Positions 46,693 through 48,764 of a stretch of DNA of 64,000 nucleotides are shown piece after piece; the stretch's first letter is position 1, and each line of letters opens with the position of its first letter. Location: assembly GCF_018128245.1 (NCBI RefSeq), contig NZ_CP072378.1:682001-746000 (forward strand), in the 5' to 3' direction. Position numbers and translations under genes: made by a program. The notes beneath the pieces were generated by a model. That model searched no databases. It saw nothing but the letters and a program-made list of their open reading frames with translations, and had not been told where the DNA came from. This DNA comes from Leptotrichia sp. oral taxon 221 (lineage in GTDB: Bacteria; Fusobacteriota; Fusobacteriia; Fusobacteriales; Leptotrichiaceae).

Positions 46693-46812
46693 ATGAAGAG
46701 AAACTTAATATTAGCGATTTTAATGGGATGTTTGATTGGGATGTTGACTTCTTGTGTGAGTGAGCAAACTAAAATAAAAAGAGATATAGAAAGAATGGCG
46801 AATAGAAGCTAA
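46693..46812 (+). CDS. Small lipoprotein, 39 aa
   Basis: A short open frame that starts with ATG at 46693, 12 bases after AAGGAG, and ends at TAA 46812. The translation begins with a signal peptide (MKRNLILAILMGCLIGM) and lipobox LTSC (Cys at residue 21), leaving an 18-residue charged mature peptide. It has the form of a small entericidin-like or Lpp-like lipoprotein, but no family is recognised. Lies between the divergent two-component operon and the DXS-like gene. The promoter and lipobox support a real gene. Confidence 0.65.
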   Translation: MKRNLILAILMGCLIGMLTSCVSEQTKIKRDIERMANRS

Positions 46813-46835: not shown

Positions 46836-46866
46836 TTGACTTGGAGTCTACTCCAACCTGTATAAT
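46836..46866 (+). promoter_or_regulatory. MerR-type promoter with operator in a 19-bp spacer
   Basis: TTGACT (46836-46841) and TATAAT (46861-46866) are 19 bases apart, instead of 17. The spacer region holds a dyad, TTGGAGTCTACTCCAA (46841-46856), of two 7-base arms with a CT centre. A 19-bp spacer with a centred dyad is the hallmark of promoters activated by MerR-family regulators. The regulator gene is not in the window. Confidence 0.7.
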
Positions 46867-46911: not shown

Positions 46912-48687
46912 ATGATATTAGACAAAATTAATAGTCCAAAAGATTTAAAAAATTTAAAAAGAGAAGAATTGATTGAATTAGCGGCTGATATAAGAAAAGC
47001 ATTATTAAATAGATTGACGAATTATCCTAAAGGAGGACATGTTGGTCCTAATTTTGGTGTGGTTGAAATGACGATTGCTTTGCATTATGTGTTTAATTCG
47101 CCAATTGATAAAATTGTGTTTGATGTGTCGCATCAAGCTTATCCACATAAAATTTTAACAGGGAGAAAAGATGGATTTCTTTACGAGGATAAATTTAAAA
47201 CTGTTAATGGGTATACTGACCAAGATGAAAGTGAGCATGATTTCTTTAGAGTTGGACATACTTCAACATCAGTTAGTTTAGCGACAGGACTTGCAAAAGC
47301 TAGAGATTTGAGAGGTGCTAAAGAGAATATAATTGCATTGATTGGAGATGGTTCGTTAAGTGGAGGACTTGCTTATGAAGGATTGAGTAATGCTGCTGAA
47401 CAAGGAGGAAATCTGATAATTATTGCGAATGACAATGATCAGTCAATTGCGGAAAATCATGGTGGATTGTATAAAAATTTAAGGGAATTGAGAGAAAGTA
47501 ATGGTGAGGCACCAAACAATTTCTTTAAATCACTTGGTTTGGATTATAGATATGTGGCCGATGGACATGATATTAATAAATTGATTGAAGTATTTGAAGA
47601 AGTGAGAGATATCGATCATCCAATAGTTTTACATATTCATACAATAAAAGGAAAAGGATTGCCATATGCTGAAAAAGATAGAGAACCTTGGCATTATAAT
47701 TCAAACTTTGATCCAAAAACAGGTGAACCAAAAACTAAACCTGAACCAAAAGAGGACTTTGGAACAATAACATTTGATTTCTTGACAGATAAAATGGAAA
47801 AAGATCTGACAGTTACATTTATTAATGCTGGTGTTCCTATGGGATTTGGATTTACAAAAGACAGAAGAGAAAAATTGGATAAATTGAGAAAACAATATGT
47901 TGATGTTGGAATTGCTGAAGAACATGCGACAACCTTTTCATCAGGAATGGCAACAAATGGTGCAAAACCAGTATTTGGTGTAATTAGTACTTTTGTTCAA
48001 AGAACTTACGACCAAATATCTCATGATATTGCAATAAATAAAGCACCAACAGTTACTTTAGTATTTGGTGGGACATTAAAAGGTATGAACGATGTAACAC
48101 ATTTGGGATACTTTGACATACCAATGATTTCAAATATACCGAATATCGTGTATTTGGCACCAACTACAAAAGAAGAATACTTAGCAATGCTTGACTGGGC
48201 GATTGATCAAAATGAAAATCCAGTATTTATAAAAGTGCCTGGTGGAGCAGTTCAACATTCTGAAACTGATGTGGATAAAGATTATTCTAACTTGAATAGC
48301 TACAAAGTTGTGGAAAAAGGGAAAGATGTGGCGATTGTCGGATTGGGAGAATTTTTTGCGTTAGGTAAAGAAGTGAAGGAATTGTTGAAAAAAAAAGCTG
48401 GAATTGACGCAACATTAATAAATCCTAGATTTATAAGTGGTCTTGATGAAAATTTATTGAATGAATTAAAACAAAATCATAAATTAGTAGTTACATTGGA
48501 AAGTGGTCAAAAAGAAGGTGGATTTGGAACGAAAATTTCTAGTTTCTATGGTACTTCTGACATGAAAGTGCTTAATGTAGGTGCTAAAAAAGAATTTACT
48601 GATGAAGTTCCTTATGATGTATTTTTTGAGGAAAATAGACTTACGAAAGAACAAATTGTTGAGGATATTTTAGAAGCATTAAAATAG
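46912..48687 (+). CDS. DXS-like thiamine diphosphate-dependent enzyme (probably not a true DXP synthase)
   Basis: A 591-residue transketolase-superfamily protein closest in appearance to 1-deoxy-D-xylulose-5-phosphate synthase. It keeps the family start (HYVFNSP, DVSHQAYPHKILTGR), the ThDP motif GDGSLSGG (about 145-152) with NDN (173-175), and the catalytic Glu336 in GIAEEHATTF. It differs where true DXS holds glyceraldehyde-3-phosphate. Against the E. coli sequence as I remember it, Arg398, Arg420, Asp427 and Arg478 align with Gly386, Ser407, Thr419 and Gly444, and the RGESEYD arginine is missing. It also lacks a segment after the NDN motif. So a different acceptor substrate is likely. It is monocistronic behind a MerR-type promoter. 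Confidence 0.8.
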   Translation: MILDKINSPKDLKNLKREELIELAADIRKALLNRLTNYPKGGHVGPNFGVVEMTIALHYVFNSPIDKIVFDVSHQAYPHKILTGRKDGFLYEDKFKTVNGYTDQDESEHDFFRVGHTSTSVSLATGLAKARDLRGAKENIIALIGDGSLSGGLAYEGLSNAAEQGGNLIIIANDNDQSIAENHGGLYKNLRELRESNGEAPNNFFKSLGLDYRYVADGHDINKLIEVFEEVRDIDHPIVLHIHTIKGKGLPYAEKDREPWHYNSNFDPKTGEPKTKPEPKEDFGTITFDFLTDKMEKDLTVTFINAGVPMGFGFTKDRREKLDKLRKQYVDVGIAEEHATTFSSGMATNGAKPVFGVISTFVQRTYDQISHDIAINKAPTVTLVFGGTLKGMNDVTHLGYFDIPMISNIPNIVYLAPTTKEEYLAMLDWAIDQNENPVFIKVPGGAVQHSETDVDKDYSNLNSYKVVEKGKDVAIVGLGEFFALGKEVKELLKKKAGIDATLINPRFISGLDENLLNELKQNHKLVVTLESGQKEGGFGTKISSFYGTSDMKVLNVGAKKEFTDEVPYDVFFEENRLTKEQIVEDILEALK

Positions 48688-48733: not shown

Positions 48734-48764
48734 AAACGCTCTTGATATTTAGTTAAGAGCGTTT
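48734..48764. terminator. Bidirectional terminator between the DXS-like gene and htrA
   Basis: AAACGCTCTT (48734-48743) and AAGAGCGTTT (48755-48764), 10-bp perfect stem with an 11-base loop. A-rich on the left and T-rich on the right, so it can stop both convergent genes. Confidence 0.88.

Follow-up and report, generated by a model that had tools for sequence, protein, structure and literature searches.

The 64,000-nucleotide stretch of the Leptotrichia sp. oral taxon 221 genome considered here (contig NZ_CP072378.1, positions 682,001 to 746,000; the window) carries a gene for a thiamine diphosphate (ThDP) enzyme built like 1-deoxy-D-xylulose 5-phosphate (DXP) synthase (DXS). Its product belongs to a subfamily separate from canonical DXS that has lost residues by which DXS holds glyceraldehyde-3-phosphate (GAP), no DXP-consuming enzyme was found in the genome, and the gene follows a promoter sequence of the MerR/NmlR type that recurs before some of its relatives. 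The protein is probably a separate enzyme for a different, perhaps toxic, aldehyde. The more precise reading favoured here, which has close to an even chance of being correct, is that this DXS-fold protein is not the DXP synthase of the isoprenoid and vitamin pathways in this bacterium but a carboligase that acts under carbonyl stress on an unphosphorylated aldehyde.

The open reading frame (ORF) is real, the coordinates given in an initial annotation of the window being exact, and its product shows the domain order of DXS (DXP_synthase_N, Transket_pyr and Transketolase_C in a domain search). It scores 898.7 bits against NF008968, the model of the PRK12315 subfamily (cut-off 510), 642.6 bits against NF003933 (cut-off 395) and 477.2 bits against TIGR00204 (dxs; cut-off 465.95), and thus passes the NCBI dxs cut-off, while the best transketolase model reaches 89.2 bits for a cut-off of 488 and does not include it. 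The sequence family is already known, through the NCBI model and a solved structure, PDB 9kpq, whose protein is 62% identical to that of the window and 88% identical to a protein from a Bacteroides metagenome-assembled genome (MAG). Both bear the DXS name, the former as its product name and the latter from its depositors. A collection of plasmids holds nine records with a relative; eight of the nine are annotated there, all eight as DXP synthase. These names, together with the scores above the dxs cut-offs, bear out the suspicion of the initial annotation that such proteins are being filed as dxs. In the open-access literature, no paper naming 9KPQ, testing the function of the NF008968 subfamily or dealing with its control by NmlR was recognised.

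A scan of 84,980 species genomes gave at least 540 stretches encoding a relative, of which the best 80 were taken; the relatives examined among these are members of the NF008968 subfamily. By record title they come from Bacteroidota, Bacillota, Fusobacteriota, Melainabacteria, Alphaproteobacteria, a Treponema and an Elusimicrobia MAG, many of them from gut or rumen and several being MAGs, whose assignment can err. Collinsella also carries a copy. The alignment comprised the window protein, Escherichia coli DXS (b0420), 21 canonical fusobacterial DXS (nine in a first version) and 90 subfamily rows, namely 88 loci (89, L016 to L104, less L060, which contributed no ORF to the cluster), the window and 9kpq. 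In a tree obtained by a quick search, in which E. coli forms a long branch flagged by a program warning, the 90 subfamily rows stand on one side of a branch and the 22 canonical DXS on the other, with an SH-like approximate likelihood ratio (SH-aLRT) support of 100; this check, proposed in the initial annotation, thus yields a separate clade. Within the clade the phyla are intermixed, which suggests that the subfamily spread by horizontal transfer.

The catalytic core is intact. The columns of E. coli H80, D152, N181, H299, E370, R398 and H431 are kept in 90/90 subfamily and 22/22 canonical rows, and H49 in 89 of the 90 subfamily rows, the remaining one being gapped; Glu336 of the window protein corresponds to the catalytic E370. 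The ThDP motifs and the catalytic Glu are therefore kept, as had been stated from the start. The residues corresponding to R99, R420, D427 and R478 are in contrast lost in nearly all members (Table 1): Asp stands at D427 in 22/22 canonical rows and 1/90 subfamily rows, and an Asp appears one place further on (Asp394 in the window protein) in 90/90 subfamily rows, where canonical rows have Gly (Asp 0/22). With five plasmid copies added, this Asp is found in 92 of 95 rows. The loop after the NDN motif counts 33 residues in 90/90 subfamily rows versus 65–68 in 22/22 canonical rows, a shortening that had been noticed before. The canonical rows sample little diversity, 21 of the 22 being fusobacterial and the other E. 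coli. In four further PDB chains inspected by eye, R420 and D427 are present throughout, R478 is R or K, and the R99 place is occupied by R, R, K and R. Near-universal loss across 90 rows makes this a trait of the family and not of one gene, and the subfamily is, as judged from the alignment, a separate DXS-like group without the arginines that bind the GAP phosphate. At the place of R420 its members vary (W 34, T 15 and G 11 of 90), which hints that they differ in substrate.

The initial annotation had reached the same outcome through partly different pairings. Its match of R478 with G444 was correct, and it was right that R420 and D427 are lost; their partners are G386 and N393 and not S407 and T419, which align with E. 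coli R441 and D453, positions that are R and D in only one of the 22 canonical rows each. R398, said to be replaced by G386, aligns with R364 and is kept throughout. The arginine of RGESEYD (R110), reported missing, is not a general feature of DXS in this set, 21 of the 22 canonical rows having Pro, and the loss of R99 (D93 in the window protein) had gone unremarked. Its conclusion on lost substrate-holding residues survives for R420, R478 and D427, despite several wrong pairings.

Compared with E. coli DXS, the window protein thus agrees in domain order, ThDP motifs, catalytic Glu, the histidines H49, H80, H299 and H431, and R398, but it is only 34% identical, lacks R420, R478, D427 and R99, has a loop of 33 instead of 65 residues and works in a genome where no DXP-using enzyme was found. 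9kpq falls in the same subfamily and clade and has W, N, A and E at the columns of R420, D427, R478 and R99; it differs from the window protein by Trp instead of Gly at the first of these and by Tyr instead of Ile (I358) at Y392. The variability of this last column (Tyr in 23/90 subfamily rows), together with the new invariant Asp394, could fit an enzyme using a transketolase-like donor (a ketose or hydroxypyruvate) and cleaving sugars rather than building them. Such an activity is quite improbable, since H49, H299 and H431 of the DXS network are kept, transketolase models stay far under their cut-off and no sugar catabolic operon recurs around the gene.

What the lost residues do is described for E. 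coli DXS. According to excerpts from three papers (PMC11019550, PMC11908136, PMC12633525), R420 and R478 bind D-GAP, the R478A variant has a Km for D-GAP of 1400 uM and R420A an extremely inefficient turnover, D427A and H431A need no trigger to activate lactyl-ThDP, and aldehydes other than GAP can act as triggers. The network H431-D427-R99-H49-H299 holds lactyl-ThDP until a trigger binds, and its variants show early activation and a 2-carbon product (excerpt from PMC12633525). In the subfamily, this network is broken at D427 and R99, the three histidines being kept. A natural enzyme lacking R420, R478, R99 and D427 should bind GAP poorly and decarboxylate pyruvate under weaker control. Alternatively, as the loss of R99 and D427 should ease the decarboxylation of lactyl-ThDP, the protein could be an ungated pyruvate decarboxylase or an acetoin-forming enzyme, providing a fermentative outlet under stress and not scavenging aldehydes. 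The 2-carbon product of the E. coli variants and an annotated acetolactate decarboxylase gene near the Selenomonas copy (L186) speak for this alternative; it is nonetheless improbable, as the NmlR-type promoter described below suggests that the signal is a reactive carbonyl or a thiol stress, and the acetolactate decarboxylase gene is a single case, on the opposite strand.

The genome of the window (2.08 Mb, two contigs, 99.86% complete) contains no second DXS gene. The only two further matches, which by eye resemble a transketolase in two parts (L002) and the E1 beta subunit of pyruvate dehydrogenase (L003), were set aside; at L002 (1420-3180), the transketolase is apparently encoded by two separate genes of 273 and 308 aa. 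None of the DXP consumers Dxr, ThiG and PdxJ was found in this genome, which has a 3-hydroxy-3-methylglutaryl-CoA (HMG-CoA) reductase. The search for a canonical dxs and for the rest of the methylerythritol phosphate (MEP) pathway, suggested in the initial annotation, therefore returned neither a canonical dxs nor Dxr. Among 40 genomes (this one and relatives), the same 21 carry Dxr and canonical DXS (Dxr being above cut-off in 20 and a fragment in G001). The subfamily gene occurs in 10 of the 40: two (G032 and G036) also have Dxr, and the eight others lack it and all encode HMG-CoA reductase. Only one of these eight, G002, has a full-length ThiG. By eye except for ThiG, its thiamine operon (L148, 3742-10875) reads thiD, thiE, thiC, thiF, thiG and a thiH-like gene; a transposase-like ORF lies inside thiD, and thiH is divided between two frames, so that thiazole synthesis looks decayed there. 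The analysis also covered 22 named isolates with the subfamily gene: canonical DXS is also present in 20 and Dxr in 21, the exceptions being Enterococcus cecorum, with neither canonical DXS nor Dxr, and Allisonella histaminiformans.

The promoter offers evidence of another kind, on the signal to which the gene may respond. Upstream of the window gene, TTGACT and TATAAT are separated by 19 nt, and a perfect 7-bp inverted repeat, which shares its first base with the end of the -35 box, extends into the spacer (Table 1). A spacer of 19–20 bp is a mark of MerR promoters (excerpt from PMC5045206), and such a spacer containing a dyad is what NmlR-regulon promoters are expected to show. A pattern generalised from the sites of relatives and of the window, with up to three mismatches allowed, has a single match in the window, where shuffling predicts 0.01, and a single one in the 2.08-Mb genome, at the window site and with one mismatch. 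Across 24 genomes, it gives 26 matches versus one for the reversed control.

In the relatives, counted without the window, a site of at least 14/16 lies within 500 nt upstream of 14 of the 85 subfamily genes having enough upstream sequence (out of 88 loci), versus 7 of 948 other ORFs of at least 150 aa (p 2e-11). A -10 hexamer, which was not part of the operator search, matches in at least four of six positions at the right distance in 20 of the 21 best sites (at least 12/16, with room for the test), for a background of 9%. Fourteen loci show a site without an adjacent MerR gene, and 33 of the 88 show a site or a MerR gene; L055, whose site has no -35 and -10, was dropped. Eight loci were added later from the plasmid collection, H8 being left out as a near copy of H7. 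Sites were found in L180 (14/16) and L186 (13/16, the copy being annotated as shorter), and in L184 a 14/16 site is followed by a flavodoxin gene, a gene recognised by eye as merR-like and then the DXS-like gene; in the five others (L179, L181, L182, L183 and L185), no site was found. The record of L184 (NZ_CP084075.1), a 2.1-Mb sequence of Fusobacterium vincentii labelled as a plasmid, is, judging by its size, probably the chromosome. Considering the window genome and its nine gene-bearing relatives, a site of at least 12/16 precedes the gene in 4/4 genomes with a strong NmlR homologue (E <1e-35) and 1/6 of the others (p 0.024 with thresholds chosen post hoc; 3/3 versus 1/6 without the window, p 0.048 by hand). 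G002 belongs to the latter: it has neither a strong NmlR homologue nor a site, only the left half being kept at the same place.

A gene for an NmlR-type MerR protein is the immediate neighbour in 19 of the 88 loci, corresponding to 19/167 adjacent ORFs versus 3/1074 other ORFs (Fisher p 1e-14, related loci being non-independent), and this adjacency requires at least 13 state changes on the tree. Three of these proteins were scanned; their best match is the NCBI NmlR model, below its cut-off. All 22 MerR proteins keep a Cys in the column of residue 52 of the L016 protein, which is the number of the AdhR cysteine (alignment, by eye). An excerpt from PMC4776306 describes Cys52/54 as the sensor cysteine and presents regulators of the NmlR clade as putative sensors of carbonyl or oxidative stress. 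The NmlR and AdhR regulons of Haemophilus influenzae, Neisseria meningitidis and Bacillus subtilis share with the MerR-adjacent loci a MerR regulator with a conserved Cys, and their targets include carbonyl-handling enzymes; the targets named in that excerpt are an alcohol dehydrogenase, an esterase, a carboxymuconolactone decarboxylase and a cysteine proteinase, a ThDP enzyme not being among them.

The company of the sites is compatible with such a regulon. The 26 fusobacterial matches were sorted by the first gene within 300 nt downstream (Pfam, except L167, by eye). This gene encodes an iron alcohol dehydrogenase in three cases, an aldo/keto reductase in three, a flavodoxin or FMN reductase in four and a short-chain dehydrogenase in two, so that these four kinds of oxidoreductase account for 12 of the 26 sites; it encodes a MerR protein in three, a LysR protein in one and the window protein in one. 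Single cases are an alpha/beta hydrolase, a DUF362 protein, a histidine phosphatase (with a MerR gene downstream of it) and a DHODB-like flavoprotein; L174 has a short unscanned ORF, and L157, L159, L172 and L176 have no ORF within 300 nt. Elsewhere in the window genome (L150, 6456-7848), a second MerR gene is divergent from a short-chain dehydrogenase gene with a weaker site (11/16) between them, and G006 (L163) has a similar pair with a site. An aldo/keto reductase gene adjoins the subfamily gene directly upstream in Lactobacillus amylolyticus and overlaps it by 4 nt in L064 and L075, two related Oscillospiraceae MAGs; overall, such genes represent 3/167 adjacent versus 7/1074 other ORFs (p 0.14). 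Gene context otherwise varies, none of the operon partners recurring in the stretches of the nine relatives. Clusters present in at least four of the 88 loci include an ABC-type ATPase and a MATE-like transporter, at varied distances. A role in sugar catabolism was considered and set aside, as these loci share no conspicuous recurrent family of kinases, isomerases or transporters.

Several observations weigh against the carboligase reading. Since the motif was originally derived from the site in the window, the window cannot count as independent evidence for it, and the control, the pattern read backwards, has one match in the window genome too (up to three mismatches). No MerR gene adjoins the window gene; the closest NmlR homologue of its genome (C1:314271-314615, E 3.3e-39, 134 bits for an NCBI cut-off of 175) lies 0.4 Mb away, and no site of this promoter type was seen before the homologue's own gene. 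In 55 of the 88 loci, some of them cut by contig ends, there is neither an adjacent MerR gene nor a site. An AraC regulator adjoins the gene in five loci, all from Bacteroidota (p 0.003), and the enrichment of aldo/keto reductase, flavodoxin, LysR and sugar O-acetyltransferase genes among the neighbours is not significant (p 0.14–0.64); as a consequence, only the MerR link and, weakly, the AraC link are used here. In addition, not every NmlR-clade regulator responds to aldehydes: the excerpt from PMC4776306 reports no formaldehyde phenotype for the pneumococcal one and a response to thiol stress for the gonococcal one.

Other adverse points favour a genuine DXP synthase that has remodelled its acceptor pocket and whose DXP or 1-deoxyxylulose would serve a use not recognised in the genome. 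This is unlikely, yet it deserves weight, as the protein scores above the NCBI cut-offs for DXS equivalogs and the depositors of 9kpq chose that name. The R99A and D427A variants of E. coli differ only moderately from the wild type in activity (excerpt from PMC12633525) and R478A retains some, so that a DXS lacking just R99 and D427 would still be active; the place of R99 is occupied by Lys in Deinococcus radiodurans DXS (excerpt from PMC11019550). G002, whose protein is 88% identical to that of the window, has ThiG, and no canonical DXS was found there. A. histaminiformans (G060) has Dxr and two subfamily genes, canonical DXS not being found; this is the strongest evidence against a blanket exclusion of the subfamily from DXS, some members of which may make DXP. 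On the other side stand the missing Dxr, ThiG and PdxJ in the window genome, the canonical DXS present in 20 of the 22 named carriers, and the loss of the GAP arginines in nearly all members, R420A being so inefficient in E. coli. Furthermore, no canonical full-length DXS was found in 12 Allisonella-family genomes (G060 and 11 others; E up to 1e-60), among which three have subfamily-like matches and nine have neither type, so that the gap is not simply filled by the subfamily protein there (Dxr was not searched in the genomes other than G060).

For the favoured carboligase, the following course of events can be proposed. An NmlR-type MerR regulator, responding to carbonyl or oxidative stress, would bind the putative operator and switch the gene on. 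The enzyme would take up pyruvate on ThDP through the conserved His and Glu machinery, and because R99 and D427 are lost, decarboxylation would be gated less tightly by GAP. The hydroxyethyl group might then be added to a small unphosphorylated aldehyde (e.g. methylglyoxal, formaldehyde, glycolaldehyde or acetaldehyde), the direction assumed being synthesis and not cleavage. The product would be an alpha-hydroxyketone of lower reactivity, open to further reduction by enzymes of the same regulon, and the presumed purpose would be detoxification. The promoter evidence makes a small reactive aldehyde more likely as the substrate. It is conceivable, though doubtful, that the subfamily represents an unrecognised arm of the carbonyl stress response, in which an NmlR-controlled ThDP carboligase removes reactive aldehydes by forming a C-C bond with pyruvate and not by redox or thiol chemistry, and which has spread horizontally in gut, rumen and other bacteria (records in at least seven phyla) while being filed as DXP synthase, including in the PDB.

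All subfamily copies whose annotation was seen bear the name of the first enzyme of the MEP pathway, an antibiotic target. Metabolic models and lists of drug targets that trust the dxs name would credit an MEP step to users of the mevalonate pathway, or a second DXS to bacteria that own one. The promoter provides a direct and cheap route to the function, through the identity of its inducer. Should the protein prove to be such a carboligase, bacteria would have a new route, by C-C bond formation, for the removal of reactive aldehydes, and the subfamily would offer natural relatives of DXS with varied acceptor pockets for biocatalysis.

Table 1. Positions of the DXS-like gene, the codons of its altered residues and the flanking signals in the window
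Feature	Position	Strand	Evidence
MerR/NmlR-type promoter TTGACT, 19-nt spacer, TATAAT; 3' end 45 nt upstream of the start codon	46836..46866	+	motif search
Perfect 7-bp inverted repeat TTGGAGT-CT-ACTCCAA, putative NmlR operator	46841..46856	+	sequence; related sites before relatives
DXS-like ThDP enzyme, 591 aa, NF008968/PRK12315 subfamily	46912..48687	+	domain and NCBIfam scores
Codon of D93 (E. coli R99, gating network)	47188..47190	+	R in 22/22 canonical, 0/90 subfamily (K in 1)
Codon of G386 (E. coli R420, GAP binding)	48067..48069	+	R in 22/22 canonical, 2/90 subfamily
Codons of N393-D394 (E. coli D427-G428), acidic residue shifted by one place	48088..48093	+	alignment
Codon of G444 (E. 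coli R478, GAP binding)	48241..48243	+	R/K in 22/22 canonical, 2/90 subfamily
Terminator-like hairpin with T-run, 13-pair stem, 3' of the gene	48734..48764	+	sequence

Followed by a terminator-like hairpin, the DXS-like gene looks monocistronic. Upstream of it lies a divergent two-component pair (by eye). A 39-codon ORF (46693-46812, + strand) with a ribosome-binding-like site and a lipoprotein-like signal (LTSC), both recognised by eye, separates the DXS-like gene from the divergent response regulator gene.

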